Of a stretch of DNA of 26,196 nucleotides, positions 18,266 to 24,152 are shown piece after piece. The notes under the pieces were generated by a model. That model saw nothing but the letters and a program-made list of their open reading frames with translations. It ran no database searches and had not been told where the DNA came from. Every line of letters begins with the position of its first letter. Within the stretch, counting starts at the first letter, position 1. Origin of the DNA: a virus; IMG/VR virus record IMGVR_UViG_3300029989_000137, positions 1 through 26,196 of that record; one strand, 5' to 3'. A program made the position numbers and the translations under genes.

Positions 18266-19786
18266 ATGAAATTTAATGTAACCGAAAACTGTAAATTTTT
18301 AAGATTAATAGAAGCTACTGATTTAGAACTTGAGCAATTGCATCACAGTTTAAAGAAAAAGATCAGAGGACATTTCTATAACCCGCTAGTGAAGAAAAAG
18401 TTGTGGGATGGATCTATCTCTTTCATAAAGGATGGATATATTCAGATTGGGTTGTGGAATGAACTATTCATTATCGGTGAGCAGTTTGGTTATCCTGTTG
18501 AAATATACGGTTTAGATAAAATAGTTGATTCAGAATTTGATGCTCAACGCTTCAAAGATTGGTCAACAAAACATTTCGAAGGCAATAAATATCAGCCTAG
18601 AGACTATCAATTAGATGCGGCTATTGCAATCATGAAGCACAGAATCACTTCTTCTGAAATTGCAACATCATCTGGAAAGACACTTATCACTTTCTTAGTC
18701 TACGGTTATTTGAAAAGTATCGGTCAGCTAAATAAAATGCTCATTATTGTACCTAATGTTACGCTTGTAATGCAATTAAATGATGACTTTGACGAGTATA
18801 ATAATGGCAAAATCGATATGCAAATTAGGATGGTATACGGTGGAGCTAAAGATAATGATCCAAGCGCTGATATAATAGTTGGTACCTTCCAATCTTTGTC
18901 TAGAAAAACCATCGATTACTACAAAGGAATTGACGTAGTATGTGTTGATGAAGCTCACCAAGGAAAAACTGTATCAGTTAAAAATGTATTGGACAAATGT
19001 AAAGACTCCAGAGTTAGATTTGGTCTTACTGGTACATTATGTGTAGATAATTCTGCTGACTATTATACGATAACTGCATATTTAGGTCCTTTGGTCAATA
19101 CTATTTCACCAAAATTCCTATTCGATGAGGGATATGCTACTCCTGTAAAAGTAAAAATCATAAAACTTAACTATAAGAACACTGAAATACGGGAAAAACT
19201 TTACGAGTTAAGAAAATCGAAGGCTCAATTAGACGGTAGTCAGTTATTAGCATTAGAAAAGAAGATAGTTGTACAACATAAAGGACGTACAAGATTTATC
19301 ATAGACTTATTAGCTAAAACTTCTAAGAATACGTTAGTCATGTTCTCTAATATAAAAGATAACTATGGCAGATCTATCTATGATGCATTAAGAGAAGAAA
19401 CTGAAAAAGTTTGTTATTATGTAGATGGCGGTGTAAGTAAAGACCACAGAGAATATTACAAGAAAGATATGGAGAATGGAGACAATAAAATTCTTATTGC
19501 TTCATTTACTACATTCTCCACTGGTATATCGATAAAGAACATTCATAATATCGTATTCATTGAATCATACAGATCAGAAATAATCATTAAACAGTCTATC
19601 GGTAGAGGAATGAGATTATTAGATGGAAAAGAAAAGGTAAATATTGTCGATATAGTTGATGATTTATCTTGGCAAACAAAATCTGATAAACAGAGTGACA
19701 ATTATCTACTCAAGCATGGTAAAGCAAGACTAGAATTCTATAAGCAGTATACTGAAGAGATTTCAATGCATAATGTTTCATTGTAA
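18266..19786 (+). CDS. uvsW: UvsW-like superfamily 2 DNA/RNA helicase
   Basis: At 506 residues it has nearly the length of T4 UvsW. The N-terminal domain with FYNPLVKKKLWDGSI corresponds to the T4 segment FNPRFRYGNWDGRI. RecA-like domain 1 carries YQ(L)DA, Walker A SSGKT (Ser136-Gly137-Lys138-Thr139), DEAH at 228-231 and GLTGTL. Domain 2 carries VMFSNIKD, ASFTTFSTGISIKN and QSIGRGMRLLDGK with the motif VI arginines. UvsW unwinds and migrates branched DNA and R-loops, shutting off origin replication in favour of recombination-dependent replication. It follows UvsY by 12 bases. All helicase motifs look intact. Confidence 0.93.
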   Translation: MKFNVTENCKFLRLIEATDLELEQLHHSLKKKIRGHFYNPLVKKKLWDGSISFIKDGYIQIGLWNELFIIGEQFGYPVEIYGLDKIVDSEFDAQRFKDWSTKHFEGNKYQPRDYQLDAAIAIMKHRITSSEIATSSGKTLITFLVYGYLKSIGQLNKMLIIVPNVTLVMQLNDDFDEYNNGKIDMQIRMVYGGAKDNDPSADIIVGTFQSLSRKTIDYYKGIDVVCVDEAHQGKTVSVKNVLDKCKDSRVRFGLTGTLCVDNSADYYTITAYLGPLVNTISPKFLFDEGYATPVKVKIIKLNYKNTEIREKLYELRKSKAQLDGSQLLALEKKIVVQHKGRTRFIIDLLAKTSKNTLVMFSNIKDNYGRSIYDALREETEKVCYYVDGGVSKDHREYYKKDMENGDNKILIASFTTFSTGISIKNIHNIVFIESYRSEIIIKQSIGRGMRLLDGKEKVNIVDIVDDLSWQTKSDKQSDNYLLKHGKARLEFYKQYTEEISMHNVSL

Positions 19787-19787
19787 T

Positions 19788-19796
19788 GATATATAA
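19788..19796 (+). promoter_or_regulatory. Candidate promoter element GATATATAA
   Basis: The word GATATATAA overlaps the end of the uvsW stop region and lies 13 bases before the ATG at 19810. It is identical to the element at 5852. If it is a promoter box, the downstream transcript would have a very short leader. The alternative is that this is simply the A-rich translation leader. Confidence 0.25.
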
Positions 19797-19809
19797 GAAA
19801 AAATCTAAT

Positions 19810-20649
19810 ATGAAATTACTGAAATTTAATGAGTTCCTCAATGAAGATAAAATGCCATTGAGTGATCAATTCGAAGAATATACAGTTAATGACATGGGTG
19901 AAGGTAAGTTTATTGTCAATATAGATAATGTAGATCGTCAATTTTCAGTAGTTCCCATTCCAGATGACATGGACACTTACGTTAATCTTTATCATGACTT
20001 AAATAATGCTATTAATTCAAAAAGTCCTCTAGCTATTTACAATCTCATAAAGAGAGCAGAGAAACTGCCATACAAATTCGGCAATTTATTTCCACTAGAA
20101 TTATCGTTGAATAACATAAGTGAACTTAGTACTACTTTAACTGAAGATCAACAGAATCAACTTAAGTTGTCTGAACATGATTTCTTGAAGAATAACTTTG
20201 CTACATTAGATAAGTCTCTACGTGCTACCATCATGAAATATCTATACGATATATCGAAAATGTATGCGATCGTATTAGAGTCATTATTCTATTACACAAG
20301 AACCGGAAAATCAGATACTTTCTATGATAGTATGGATTACAGTCAGATTATTAAGACGTATGACGATTTGATTAAAAAGTATTTGTCTGATGCCAAAGGT
20401 CCTTTCGATATAAAAGGACAAACTATTGATTCTCCATCTGAATTTGCGTATTGGTCTTTCAATAAAGATACGTACTATATCAGAGCTACCACATCTCCTA
20501 GTGATTTAAACTCAGAAGAAAATATACGTGGTGTAAAAGGACTTAGCTTAACTATTCTGGATAGTGACAAACAAGAAATTTCAAAAGAATTTGTATCTAT
20601 ACCGTTAGATAGTTTTCCGTCAGCATTGAAAAAATTAAGAGATAGATAA
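19810..20649 (+). CDS. Hypothetical protein with a capsid-targeting-like N-terminus (MKLLKFNEFLNE)
   Basis: From the ATG at 19810 the product is 279 residues; an upstream in-frame ATG at 19786 (TAATG with the uvsW stop) would add eight Lys-rich residues. The internal start is preferred because MKLLKFNEFLNEDK resembles the N-terminal capsid-targeting sequence of T4 internal proteins and has a Leu-Asn-Glu site fitting gp21-type cleavage. The body is mostly helical (about 55-190) with a beta-rich end. No enzymatic motif is seen. It might be injected into the host with the DNA, as T4 Alt and the internal proteins are. That role is inferred from the N-terminus alone. Confidence 0.65.
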   Translation: MKLLKFNEFLNEDKMPLSDQFEEYTVNDMGEGKFIVNIDNVDRQFSVVPIPDDMDTYVNLYHDLNNAINSKSPLAIYNLIKRAEKLPYKFGNLFPLELSLNNISELSTTLTEDQQNQLKLSEHDFLKNNFATLDKSLRATIMKYLYDISKMYAIVLESLFYYTRTGKSDTFYDSMDYSQIIKTYDDLIKKYLSDAKGPFDIKGQTIDSPSEFAYWSFNKDTYYIRATTSPSDLNSEENIRGVKGLSLTILDSDKQEISKEFVSIPLDSFPSALKKLRDR

Positions 20650-20697: not shown

Positions 20698-21903
20698 ATG
20701 GGTGGAAATTCAAGAATAATAGATAGACAAACAGGAGATATTAAAGGTTATGCCGAAAAAGTAGATCTGACCATGTTCAATAGAACAGAATTGACTCGAC
20801 GTATGTTGGGTCTTTTTTCGTATATAAATGTTGAATTCTTTAAGAATTACGGCGTATTTATTTGGAAGTTCGAAGACTTAACTGAAGCATTAGTTTTTAC
20901 AGGTAGTTCAAAACACTTATTCAACTCTGAAATCACAGATCAAGATTTCATAAAGCATAAACCCATAATCGGTGATATAGACATTGCATTTCCAAAAGAT
21001 TATTATACTGATCTTGCTGAATTGTTACAAAGCCTTGAAGGTGAAACATTAGTAGAAGGCATAACATATCTTGGACAAGACCGCAATAATTTCAATACTA
21101 CTTTTCTGTCAGTATTCGAATACAAATCTGGCAAAGATAAGGTTAACATTCAGATAGACTTTGAATCGAATGAGTGGGATATGGAGAAAAATGAACCTAC
21201 AGAATGGACATTATTTTCTCATAGTTCTTCATGGGAAGACATATGTCTTGGATTCAAAGGTGTTCATCATAAATTCTTACTTATAAATCTTGTTCGAGCA
21301 TTATCTTCTAATCCAAATGCAGTTGTTGCTACTAAATCATCTACACCAGACAATATAAAATTATGTACGGGTAAGAAAGCTGATTTAGTTCCGAGAATGT
21401 TAGCATTTTCTGTTGACAAAGGATTACGTCAAAAATACGCTCCCATGATAGATAAGAATGGCTATAATGTATATAAAGATGGAAAATTAGTTATTCAAGA
21501 GATTCCAGTCGAGAATTCTACTTATACAACAGCTGTGAGTGAAATCGTATATGGATTAGTTGATAGTGTCTTCGATATCTATAAACCCGGAAATGACACA
21601 TGTATTCTAGAAGTTAGTAAAGAAGAGATAGAAGACTTCTATTCAGTTATAGGTCTATTAGATTTTATGAAGAAACGTCTATTAAGAGAAGATATAGCAA
21701 AATGTTTCATGTTTATTGTACATGAAAATCTTTTTGGAACACATGCACAACTACTAGAAAAAGAGGACTTGGAGCTAGATCGAAAAATAAAAGACAAGCT
21801 TTGGATAGCGTTAATGAATAAATTTTTCTATTTGCATGATGAATATTACGATATAGTACTAACTTTAAGAAAAAAATATTATCAAGATAATGCTAAGATA
21901 TAA
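20698..21903 (+). CDS. Pol-beta-superfamily nucleotidyltransferase
   Basis: The 401-residue product shows the minimal nucleotidyltransferase signature: TGSS (Gly69-Ser70), then GDIDIAFP with Asp93 and Asp95, then VNIQIDFE with the third acidic residue Asp154. These bind two metals and catalyse NMP transfer from an NTP. A conserved-looking stretch WEDICLGFKGVHHKFLLINLVRAL (about 180-203) follows, and the remainder is helical. The substrate (tRNA end, other RNA, protein or small molecule) cannot be read from the sequence. It precedes a CxCxxC mini-protein and a ligase-NMNAT fusion, with overlaps that imply one operon. A terminator-like hairpin lies in codons 33-41. Confidence 0.72.
   Translation: MGGNSRIIDRQTGDIKGYAEKVDLTMFNRTELTRRMLGLFSYINVEFFKNYGVFIWKFEDLTEALVFTGSSKHLFNSEITDQDFIKHKPIIGDIDIAFPKDYYTDLAELLQSLEGETLVEGITYLGQDRNNFNTTFLSVFEYKSGKDKVNIQIDFESNEWDMEKNEPTEWTLFSHSSSWEDICLGFKGVHHKFLLINLVRALSSNPNAVVATKSSTPDNIKLCTGKKADLVPRMLAFSVDKGLRQKYAPMIDKNGYNVYKDGKLVIQEIPVENSTYTTAVSEIVYGLVDSVFDIYKPGNDTCILEVSKEEIEDFYSVIGLLDFMKKRLLREDIAKCFMFIVHENLFGTHAQLLEKEDLELDRKIKDKLWIALMNKFFYLHDEYYDIVLTLRKKYYQDNAKI
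20793..20818 (+). other. Terminator-like hairpin plus T6 inside the nucleotidyltransferase gene
   Basis: GACTCGAC (20793-20800) pairs with GTTGGGTC (20805-20812), eight pairs including G-T wobbles, around a GTAT loop. It is immediately followed by six T residues (20813-20818). The arrangement is that of an intrinsic terminator, about 95 bases into the coding region. It may attenuate transcription into the accessory block. The wobble pairs make it weaker than the two clear terminators here. Confidence 0.4.
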
Positions 21904-22105
21904 TGACATATTGCATGCACAAAAACGTGGAAAACGTTGGGATGCATTGAAACTTACATATAAATCACTGAACCAGTTAAGTAAAACACATTCATTAAAA
22001 TGCAACTGTTCACAATGTAGAATGATCACATATTTGAAAAGATTAGAGAATAAACAACAAAGATTGCAGCTAAAAACAGATTTAAAGAACGAATTGAATG
22101 ATTAA
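21890..22105 (+). CDS. Small basic CxCxxC protein
   Basis: The 71-residue product is Lys/Arg-rich and contains LKCNCSQCRM (Cys38, Cys40, Cys43), a possible partial metal site, followed by a helical charged tail. It overlaps the preceding nucleotidyltransferase stop by 14 bases and the next gene by 8 bases, so it is embedded in the same operon. A small nucleic-acid-binding or adaptor role for the flanking enzymes is possible but unproven. With only three Cys, metal binding would need a fourth ligand or a partner. No family recognised. Confidence 0.6.
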   Translation: MLRYNDILHAQKRGKRWDALKLTYKSLNQLSKTHSLKCNCSQCRMITYLKRLENKQQRLQLKTDLKNELND

Positions 22106-23612
22106 AGGTATGTTAGATTTGTCTATCAAAAACGTAATGAAAGTGATAGACAATGAAGAAAAAGCTGAAAAATTCTTAGATGAAGAATTCGATACTATAT
22201 CTGAAAAGATAGACGGTATAAAAATAAATATGTACAGAAAGTATGCACCATGGAATGCTGAAGATCTGTTTTCTAATTTTGTCATCTCTTATAAAAAGAT
22301 GATTCTATATCCAGAAGATATGTCAGAATATTTGTTTGGCATTCTTAAATTAGATATTGAAAACGAATCTATAGGAGATGCACAATTCTATTACATATTT
22401 GAATTACTTAGAAAGTCAGAGAAATATTTATCGATGCTTCCTCAAAATACTGAATTCTTTTTTGAATATGTGGTAAGAAAACCTACTATTTCTAGAGAAT
22501 ATAAAAAGCTTCATAAACTTATACTTTTAGGGTATGCTAATTCCTCAGCTATAGCGCGATTTGGTTATGTTACCACTTTTCCAAATCAGATGGAAACTAT
22601 AAATAATAAAGAATATGCAGCTCTTATAGGATGTGATACTCCTAAAGTATTTTTTAAGAATTTTAAGTTTCATACTAATCATCTATTACCTCATGGTGTC
22701 TCTATAACTAATTTATCGAAAATAACTGCTATCAGGAAATATCTACTTGACTTGCCGTCAGCTTATGGTGGCAAAATAGAAGGGGTGGTATTACAGAAAG
22801 GGAATGAATATTACAAATTTGTTCAAGATGACCAATACGATAAAATCCATAGAGCAACTATAAAAGATAAATATGAAATGCCAAAAGATGAAGAAAATCT
22901 TTATTTTCTTAAATTGAAGGCACTAGCAAATAAGACATTTGAAGATTTTGCAATACATACAGATATTCAAAATCCGGAGAAATGTTTAGCTATACTTTCT
23001 AGTTTAGCTTATATGAGAAAGCAAGATCTGCCTTTTCATTCGAAAAAGACGAATTTCCAAATTAGAGAAGATTTCTTTCATGTTTTAAAATACTTATATA
23101 TTCATAAACATGATGATAACACGAATACTCTATTCATTGGTAGAATGCAACCTCCAACCTCTATACATATAAACATAATCAAGAATCTGTTATTAAAGTC
23201 AAAAGGAGTATGTGTGGCTATAGTAAAAGGCAAAAAATCTGAACAGAAAAATAATCCTTTTAGTTTCGAAACGATAAAAGAAATTATAGAATACGTATTC
23301 CCTGTAGGTGTAGAAGTAATAGAAGTATCTACTGGCAATATTATAACTGCTATTAATACGTCGACTCTTGTAATATCGAAAGTAGCAGCAGGATCTGATA
23401 GAATCGAAACATACAGAAATCAACTCTTAAATAACCCTGAGATACAAGTTATAGAATTTGTAAGAGAAGATGATGTATCAGCTACTAAACTTCGAAAAGC
23501 ACTTGCAGACAAAGATATAGAAACTTTTAAAAAATATACTGATGAACAAACATGGATATTCTATGAAAGCTTGCAATCCTTGTACACAGAAAACAATATT
23601 TGTATTAGCTAA
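22098..23612 (+). CDS. Fusion of ATP-grasp-unrelated nucleic-acid ligase domain and NMNAT-like nucleotidylyltransferase
   Basis: This 504-residue protein joins two catalytic modules. Residues about 25-260 carry covalent-nucleotidyltransferase (ligase) motifs: EKIDG with the candidate nucleophile Lys37, FFFEYVV with Glu123 (motif III/IIIa type), IEGVVLQKG with Glu228 (motif IV) and YYKFV with Lys240 (motif V, second Lys replaced by Val242). Residues about 343-495 carry a cytidylyltransferase/NMNAT fold: GRMQPPTSIH (T-x-x-H, His357), KNNPFSFETIKEII, AGSDRIETYRNQL and VSATKLRKAL (Ser461-Arg466). The ligase half resembles phage RNA ligases. The second half resembles NMN or other nucleotidyl adenylyltransferases. 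It might seal or modify RNA or make NAD+-like products. An inverted repeat lies in codons 8-19. Substrates are unknown. Confidence 0.75.
   Translation: MIKGMLDLSIKNVMKVIDNEEKAEKFLDEEFDTISEKIDGIKINMYRKYAPWNAEDLFSNFVISYKKMILYPEDMSEYLFGILKLDIENESIGDAQFYYIFELLRKSEKYLSMLPQNTEFFFEYVVRKPTISREYKKLHKLILLGYANSSAIARFGYVTTFPNQMETINNKEYAALIGCDTPKVFFKNFKFHTNHLLPHGVSITNLSKITAIRKYLLDLPSAYGGKIEGVVLQKGNEYYKFVQDDQYDKIHRATIKDKYEMPKDEENLYFLKLKALANKTFEDFAIHTDIQNPEKCLAILSSLAYMRKQDLPFHSKKTNFQIREDFFHVLKYLYIHKHDDNTNTLFIGRMQPPTSIHINIIKNLLLKSKGVCVAIVKGKKSEQKNNPFSFETIKEIIEYVFPVGVEVIEVSTGNIITAINTSTLVISKVAAGSDRIETYRNQLLNNPEIQVIEFVREDDVSATKLRKALADKDIETFKKYTDEQTWIFYESLQSLYTENNICIS
22119..22153 (+). other. Perfect 10-bp inverted repeat at the start of the fusion gene
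   Basis: TTGTCTATCA (22119-22128) and TGATAGACAA (22144-22153) are exact reverse complements separated by 15 bases. An inverted repeat of this length could occur by chance once in a window of this size and composition. Its place just after the start codon could matter for translation. Confidence 0.4.
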
Positions 23613-23853
23613 AAATGTCTCTGATTTTTATCGGTATATGACCACGTTAGAATATACAGATGATGCAATTTATTACATAACGTGTATGGGAAATTTACGA
23701 GGAAGACGCAATCCTGATGAAATAGTTTTTCTAGACAATTTTTATGAAAGTAAAGATACAATAGAAGCATTCTGGCAATTAATGGATAGATATCCGAATT
23801 TTTTCATTTTCAAGAATATAAAAACACAATATACAAAAATACCGATAATATGA
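23563..23853 (+). CDS. Small conserved-type hypothetical protein (LRGRRNP motif)
   Basis: From the ATG at 23563 the product is 96 residues; an ATG at 23542 would add seven and deepen the overlap with the fusion gene to 71 bases. The core reads KTIFVLAKNVSDFYRYM, then AIYYITCMGNLRGRRNPDEIVFLDNF. It is a strand, helix, strand layout with a central LRGRR. I recall small proteins with the same plan and an LRG[RL]R motif in many phages, without known function; this was not checked. Its TGA overlaps the thioredoxin ATG (ATGA), so it is co-translated with it. An N-terminal CNPC is present if either start is right. Confidence 0.6.
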   Translation: MKACNPCTQKTIFVLAKNVSDFYRYMTTLEYTDDAIYYITCMGNLRGRRNPDEIVFLDNFYESKDTIEAFWQLMDRYPNFFIFKNIKTQYTKIPII

Positions 23854-24152
23854 AAGAAGAAGTAATGAAACAATTTTTAGAAGATACCGAAAAGGGTAAC
23901 GTAATAGTAGATTTTTGGGCTACTTGGTGTGGTCCTTGTAAGACAATTTCACCTATTTTAGATGAGTTATCTAAAGAAGCTGGTATCAAAGTGGTTAAAA
24001 TTAACGTAGATGACATTTCAAATACTGCCCTTTTAAAGAAGTTTAATGTTAGAAATATTCCTACATTAATTTGTTTCAAAGATGGTGTAGAAATAGACAA
24101 GAAAATAGGGATGCAAAGTAAAGAAGCTTTATTAACGGTTTTTTCTAAGTAA
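23850..24152 (+). CDS. Thioredoxin
   Basis: The 100-residue product is a complete single-domain thioredoxin. It has VIVDFWATWCGPCK with the redox pair Cys27 and Cys30, then KINVDD and the cis-Pro segment NIPTLICFKDG (Pro before Thr). It is a cytoplasmic dithiol reductant with the classical CGPC centre. In T4-like phages such proteins supply electrons to ribonucleotide reductase; in T7 host thioredoxin clamps the polymerase. No reductase gene lies in this window. The start overlaps the previous TGA (ATGA). The second Met, six codons in, is less likely because it would lack the coupling. Confidence 0.92.
   Translation: MKEEVMKQFLEDTEKGNVIVDFWATWCGPCKTISPILDELSKEAGIKVVKINVDDISNTALLKKFNVRNIPTLICFKDGVEIDKKIGMQSKEALLTVFSK

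Follow-up and report, generated by a model that had tools for sequence, protein, structure and literature searches.

A recurrent phage fusion of a ligase-type domain with a HIGH-type nucleotidyltransferase, the predicted sealing enzyme of an end-repair module

What use could a bacteriophage have for a single protein in which a ligase-type domain is followed by a nucleotidyltransferase of the HIGH type? The question is raised by an open reading frame (ORF) of the virus record IMGVR_UViG_3300029989_000137, whose whole stretch of 26,196 bases was analysed and is called the window in what follows. DNA helicase, UvsY-like and RuvC-like proteins are encoded around this ORF. On balance, it is somewhat probable that its product serves to seal the ends in a phage module for nucleic-acid end repair, the nucleic acid most likely being RNA. 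The protein and its parts are laid out as follows.

22098..23612, plus strand: fusion of a ligase-type and a HIGH-type (NMNAT/PPAT-like) nucleotidyltransferase, 504 amino acids (aa), phrog_27149; from the ORF, its motifs, its PHROG match and its structural model
22110..22952, plus strand: predicted ligase-type domain, residues 5-285; from motifs I-V and the Foldseek match to T4 Rnl2 (2hvr)
22953..23117, plus strand: linker, mostly helical, residues 286-340; from the secondary structure of the AlphaFold model
23118..23597, plus strand: HIGH-type nucleotidyltransferase domain, residues 341-500; from the VIA-align fold match and the NMNAT/Nudix model

A preliminary description of this DNA had quoted the motifs EKIDG, FFFEYVV, IEGVVL and YYKF for a ligase-type domain and GRMQPPTSIH, KNNPF, GSDR and SATKLR for an NMNAT-like one, and all of them are located in the 504-aa ORF. 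In the ligase half, motif I reads K37xDG (K37 codon at 22206), motif Ia Y65K66, motif III E119FFFE123, motif IV E228G229VV, and motif V has K240 in YYKF. The HIGH half contains G348RMQPPTSIH357, NPF, G432SDR (residues 432-435) and S461ATKLR (461-466). The identical 504-aa protein is encoded on two other IMG/VR contigs, which speaks against an artefactual join in the assembly.

The fusion is a real, recurrent phage enzyme without an assigned function, and the phages that carry it are large and tailed. Residues 1-488 match phrog_27149 with an E of 2.9e-57. With the fusion as the query, tblastn matched 38 phage records, and in 21 the match spans at least 80% of the query; these near-full-length matches are 30-34% identical and belong to 15 Campylobacter and six Vibrio records. 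IMG/VR contains 27 loci with a full alignment, including two twins of the window, L033, which matches via the HIGH half alone, and the interrupted L029; the ligase half is found in 49. The genome_contigs collection yielded 155 pattern matches, among which no relative was confirmed. In the phage records carrying one here, the product of the fusion gene is named 'hypothetical protein', and the CP220 record notes a nucleotidylyl transferase domain only. No description of a ligase-HIGH fusion was met in the titles and opening lines of abstracts that were covered; the RNA-repair survey PMC5062991 may mention one. The earlier remark that no described enzyme has this fusion thus needs qualifying: the function is unassigned, but the arrangement is not peculiar to the window and recurs as a family.

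For the family at large a set of 38 members was used, the window included, with L115 omitted and proteins at least 95% identical collapsed. The ligase half precedes the HIGH half in all 37 members that reach that far (H357 present), the remaining one, L156, being an interrupted gene. Invariant in 21 aligned members are K37, D39, G40, K66, E123, E228, G229, K240, G348, H357, D434, R435 and S461, so the motifs go beyond chance. Conservation of KxDG and EGVV across homologues, which the preliminary description had proposed as a check, is evident in K37, D39, G40, E228 and G229. The members L010 and L024 have similar ligase halves and HIGH halves of different flavours (GRFQP with the later Arg and GKFRI without it, respectively); this mixture of types suggests swapping of domains inside the family.

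The N-terminal half is probably a ligase-type domain, as judged by its motifs and, more weakly, by its fold. KxDG is kept in 37/37 members reaching it, E123 and E228 in 38/38, E119 in 37/38 (20 of the 21 aligned members), and the first Lys of motif V in 37/37. In the reference alignments of this analysis, the residues shared by at least 95% of the sequences are K99xDG, K119, E159, E227G and K240xK242 for Rnl1 (33 sequences) and K35xHG, R55, E99, E204G and K225xK227 for Rnl2 (28 sequences). The AlphaFold model of the fusion, built from an alignment with relatives, has a predicted local distance difference test score (pLDDT) of 86.3 and a predicted template modelling score of 0.82, compared with a pLDDT of only 33.8 in a single-sequence run. 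Foldseek matched this model to T4 Rnl2 (2hvr) with an E of 3.6e-5, at rank 50 among the 50 matches listed, and six of the 50 viral models listed are named RNA ligase. The rows of VIA-align have barely any coverage outside residues 340-500. Comparison of the N-terminal half by hhalign with single sequences of T4 Rnl2, Rnl1 and DNA ligase gave nothing significant, like an unrelated portal control. Nothing significant was found with the Rnl1 and Rnl2 alignments either; the comparison of Rnl1 with Rnl2 failed there too, so this test of the N-terminal half is uninformative.

The second Lys of motif V, present in Rnl1 and Rnl2, is found in none of the 37 members; its position is occupied by Q in 19, L in 10, V in seven and M in one. 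In T4 Rnl2 this Lys contacts the phosphate of adenosine monophosphate (AMP); with K227Q, the truncated enzyme no longer transfers AMP back but still joins 5'-adenylated donor strands at a reduced level (PMC3149579, in excerpt). The residue is also absent from the archaeal, ATP-using MthRnl (T248) and from PAB1020 (Val) (excerpt of PMC3514331). The missing Lys, noticed earlier in the window, is thus real and family-wide; the altered chemistry that was offered as its possible meaning is suggested by the loss, short of proof, MthRnl being without the Lys as well.

The C-terminal half, according to the model, clearly has the NMNAT/PPAT fold. Residues 341-500 align in VIA-align to PPAT 3pxu (Z 17.3; 150 residues with a root mean square deviation (rmsd) of 2.5) and to NMNAT 4yp6 (Z 17.0). 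The C-terminal half of the window protein scores better with the NMNAT/Nudix model NF003787 (E 2.4e-7) than with CoaD (0.048). The window protein scores far below the curated cut-offs of the NMNAT models, and against CTP_transf_like it reaches 14.4 bits, or 17.8 bits for the C-terminal half alone, short of the cut-off of 21. The window copy keeps [HT]xxH (T354..H357), GRxQP and SxTxxR (S461ATKLR), and in most members GRxQP has drifted to other forms such as GKFR. It is therefore fair to call the window copy 'NMNAT-like' while leaving the substrate wider across the family. Both halves of the domain reading in the preliminary description are borne out, the ligase-type half by motifs and the weaker match to T4 Rnl2, the NMNAT-like half by fold and the NF003787 score.

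The surroundings of the fusion gene indicate the kind of system to which it belongs. Immediately upstream in the window are a companion gene, which the preliminary description had passed over, and a short ORF.

20698..21903, plus strand: companion, a putative Pol-beta-like nucleotidyltransferase, 401 aa, phrog_19290, with G2G3N4 at its N-terminus, G69S70, D93xD95 and D154
21890..22105, plus strand: ORF of 71 aa between the companion and the fusion, with no PHROG match, overlapping both by a few bases

These overlaps suggest a single transcript. The companion is assigned by motif as a probable nucleotidyltransferase of the Pol-beta type: in 17 members G69S70 is near-invariant and D93xD95 and D154 are invariant. 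No relevant Pfam family, RlaP included, was matched by the companions of the window, L005 and Stenotrophomonas phage Mendera at E up to 1 or by ten others at E up to 0.5. The companion occurs in 21 phage records, 19 of which also have a near-full-length fusion, the other two being sister contigs of phage IBB_35; all 21 records with a near-full-length fusion thus come from phages that have the companion. Among 35 loci picked for about 1.5 kb or more of upstream flank, a substantial companion lies within the flank in 33, mostly upstream and in the same orientation as the fusion. In L129 and L131 the contig end truncates it, and in L029 it is interrupted. Its orientation is opposite in L009, it lies downstream in L158, and in L147 it is fused. 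In CP220 (L004) it lies about 65 kb from the fusion. The Mendera companion was missed by the phrog_19290 profile, was weak by tblastn (E 4e-4) and was found by a profile containing the Mendera sequence. At L029:760-7620, where the fusion is interrupted as well, additional ORFs lie between the fragments.

Further modules, likewise passed over in the preliminary description, accompany some relatives or are fused to them. At L122:2467-4443 one ORF comprises a kinase (3-139), a ligase (179-447) and a HIGH domain (481-657). At L158:3988-5637 one ORF joins a kinase (8-170) to a Pol-beta domain (186-549), and a metallophosphoesterase gene lies between it and the ligase-HIGH gene. At L147:2509-6381, on a contig of 21,868 bases, an ORF that runs into the contig end and codes for at least 1291 aa combines ligase and HIGH domains with two regions of the Pol-beta-like type; one of these, assigned by eye, bears GDIDI, and the other, after it, is a companion-like domain (969-1273, E 3.5e-44). 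A kinase lies between the companion and the fusion in L010, L022, L024 and L026, and Pfam AAA_33 was above the cut-off in all three of these kinases that were scanned (L010, L022, L026). A metallophosphoesterase gene is found near the companion in some phages. The protein phrog_1462, which from its sequence, by eye, may be nuclease-like, recurs beside the fusion (L014:4580-5941, L022:7476-8873, L009:7463-8686 and L036:3494-4930) and also near NMNAT-like genes of cyanophages.

The HIGH half of the fusion also has unlinked relatives, of the kind that the preliminary description had suggested looking for. Cyanophages carry NMNAT-like proteins, and in Stenotrophomonas phages the HIGH half is free beside a KxDG protein. 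In Mendera (L035:3381-6498) the companion, a protein without a known role, the KxDG protein and a free NMNAT are encoded by four adjacent genes. The reading of Mendera as a split version of the fusion is drawn from the motifs of the KxDG protein, Mendera_050, as judged by eye, from its position (the NMNAT gene follows it directly, and a single gene separates it from the companion) and from a local hhalign match with an E of 0.0026 and a probability of 11%; the profile of the ligase half, run on three records, did not match it.

A ligase and a HIGH domain, together with Pol-beta, kinase and phosphoesterase partners, have the make-up of a system for healing and sealing ends. By combining these observations, it is possible to describe how such a system might work. 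The phosphoesterase and the kinase would tidy the broken ends, the Pol-beta enzyme would add back lost nucleotides, and the ligase half would then seal the ends; tRNAs cleaved by defence nucleases of the host are one candidate substrate. Less certainly, the ligase half may lean less on its own ATP-driven adenylylation, as its second motif V Lys is gone. The HIGH half, whose chemistry transfers AMP from ATP onto a 5'-phosphate, might then be the source of the activated AMP in 5'-5' linkage, placed on the strand itself or provided as nicotinamide adenine dinucleotide (NAD+).

A number of observations weigh against this description. The window protein has no match to Pfam RNA_ligase at E up to 1; three of 21 members match it at E up to 0.1, the best E of 0.0043 being a weak link, and no match rose above the curated cut-off in the 11 records scanned. 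The profile of the N-terminal half matched no chain of the PDB up to E 10, and the Foldseek alignment with 2hvr has an rmsd of 23.4 over 352 columns. MthRnl is without the second Lys and yet uses ATP, so the idea of a separate AMP donor is not forced. The Arg of the NMNAT motif ISxTxxR is present in 11 of 37 members, the window included, and most are without it. Profiles built from four seeds each and run over 45 loci, seeds counted, found a kinase in 12 and a phosphoesterase in 11, a minority in both cases, and neither matched in the window. No more than 60 residues of the companion are present in L011, whose 183-kb contig is without a phrog_19290 match. A ligase of the T4 Rnl1 type is above the cut-off in six of nine fusion-bearing records, and also in Mendera, so the fusion is not simply the sole RNA ligase of its phage; the nine are the complete CP220, phiKT1024 and Va1 and six IMG/VR records that are possibly incomplete, the 26-kb fragment of the window being outside the set. 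Lastly, RNA and DNA substrates are not separable from the present data.

The same modules might act on DNA, whether of the phage or of its host, and mend or prepare ends or nicks there, perhaps directly following injection. Sets for DNA end joining are likewise built from Pol-beta, kinase and ligase modules, and the possible nuclease beside the fusion would fit such a role. The ordinary DNA ligase of CP220 beats the fusion on PF09414 (E 9.9e-6 vs 0.003), so this family does not discriminate. However, the ligases named among the listed fold matches, for which aligned ranges are not printed, are RNA ligases, and CP220 already has a gene annotated as a possible DNA ligase. A DNA substrate appears unlikely on this evidence, although it is the best of the alternatives.

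Restoration of NAD+ is quite improbable. The C-terminal half would here be a working NMNAT directed against NAD+-depleting defences, with the ligase half as an accessory. The window copy fits NMNAT models best, as its NF003787 score shows, and keeps GRxQP and SATKLR; moreover, Mendera, with its free-standing NMNAT, has NadV. However, PF04095 (NAPRTase/NadV) is found in none of the nine fusion-bearing records, whereas every phage with NadM also has NadV in the survey of PMC9503650, as excerpted, and the companion modules are of the nucleic-acid type. NAD+ salvage is therefore less likely than end repair. The preliminary description had offered RNA sealing with cap or NAD chemistry, or NAD+ repair, and RNA sealing emerges as the leading role while NAD+ repair is weak.

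It is very unlikely that the two halves form an NAD+-coupled ligase, in which NAD+ would be the AMP donor of the ligase half and would be remade by the HIGH half from the released nicotinamide mononucleotide and ATP. Such coupling would account for the constancy of the fusion (37/37) and for a dispensable second motif V Lys, which NAD+ DNA ligases lack as well. However, the 0-43 residues that precede the conserved core in 36 members (in L122 a kinase domain is there) leave no room for the Ia domain with which NAD+ ligases bind NAD+ (PMC9503650, in excerpt), and the NMNAT-type Arg is gone in most members. That one of the halves is a pseudo-enzyme, retained solely for binding, as the absent Lys and the drift of the HIGH motif from GRxQP to forms such as GKFR might indicate, is very improbable given that K37, E123, E228, K240, H357 and S461 are invariant in 21 members.

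Where and when the predicted end-repair enzyme acts may be reflected in its N-terminus, another feature absent from the preliminary description. A core (L/I/M)(D/N)xS was located near the start of the 36 members mentioned above; the start codon of L131 is unresolved in this count. At least eight residues precede the core in 24 of the 36, and 22 of these 24 have [LI]xE, the other two having FVE and LNKE. Most companions have Met immediately before their conserved GGN. A complete prefix is present in eight (L009, L019, L022, L031, L118, L122, L150 and CP220), and in all of them its last residues, directly adjoining GGN, are [LI]xE; the contig end truncates L131 (NE), and L140 has Ile before GGN. 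A prefix is absent from the window and Vibrio copies and from the CP220 fusion. In the window, the second Met of an upstream gene (19786-20649) opens a prefix-like stretch with an [LI]xE motif, and two cyanophage NMNAT-like proteins that were examined have a similar start. [LI]xE is the cleavage motif of T4 gp21, and in T4 prefixes of this kind direct proteins to the head (PMC9026906, in excerpt).

The frequencies of such prefixes were compared with those in other genes, by rules tuned after inspection and on related members. A strict rule was satisfied by 9/20 fusions, 2/17 companions and 13/291 background ORFs, and a lenient one by 18/20, 14/17 and 165/291. [LI]xE alone is found in 11/20 fusions against 73/242 background ORFs of at least 100 aa (p 0.02) and in 4/17 companions (p 0.80); with added conditions the counts are 11/20, 4/17 and 16/242. 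Since other genes of these phages have similar N-termini and the members are related, the counts are weak, and the fixed place of [LI]xE before GGN is the stronger point. The gel legend for the CP220 virion names 11 proteins, among them neither CPT_0100 nor CPT_0026, the latter number being derived from APL47_gp026 (excerpt of PMC2853527). The prefixes hint at packaging into the head for many relatives. It is distinctly unlikely, though conceivable, that many T4-like relatives bring a pre-loaded kit, in which the fusion, the Pol-beta enzyme and sometimes the kinase would be packed into the head, trimmed by the prohead protease and injected. Cut tRNAs would then be mended before the phage genes are expressed, with the HIGH half giving activated AMP and the ligase half needing no ATP-driven self-adenylylation.

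The gene just downstream of the fusion in the window (23850-24152) codes for a thioredoxin-like protein (phrog_22).

The loci described here tie three types of nucleotidyltransferase (ligase, HIGH and Pol-beta) into one phage system. A specialist would be most surprised if HIGH and ligase chemistry were coupled and if the proteins were packaged into the head. If RNA is sealed with AMP from a separate HIGH domain, this would be a new way of running a ligase, and a ligase naturally weakened in step 1 could be useful for RNA library work. If the proteins are injected, RNA repair would join the known functions of ejected phage proteins, and this would point to a way in which such phages resist defences that cut tRNA from the very start of infection.

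The predicted system can be compared with several known ones. In T4 Rnl1 and Rnl2, motifs I, Ia, III, IV and the first Lys of V follow in the order found in the fusion family, and the KxDG, YK, E, EG and K of the fusion resemble K99, K119, E159, E227 and K240 of Rnl1; unlike the fusion family, both T4 ligases have the second motif V Lys, and only the fusion has a HIGH nucleotidyltransferase as its C-terminal partner. NadM/NadR and CoaD share with the window fusion the fold (Z about 17), [HT]xxH and SxTxxR. However, the partner of NadM/NadR is a Nudix or a kinase domain (PMC9503650, in excerpt), whereas the HIGH half of the fusion sits behind a ligase-type domain and most relatives have a drifted HIGH motif. 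The [LI]xE prefix of the T4 internal head proteins (IPI-III, Alt) is also present on many relatives of the fusion, which are thereby candidates for packaging, but it is missing from the window, Vibrio and CP220 fusions. A further parallel is the reported make-up of phage RNA repair, a ligase with a Pol-beta nucleotidyltransferase (RlaP), a kinase and a phosphoesterase. As in the fusion loci, the Pol-beta-type enzyme of the RlaP systems is tied to a ligase and a kinase or phosphoesterase is sometimes near; in contrast to them, the companion is without a relevant Pfam match, and the excerpted text on those systems mentions no HIGH-fused ligase (PMC7824862).

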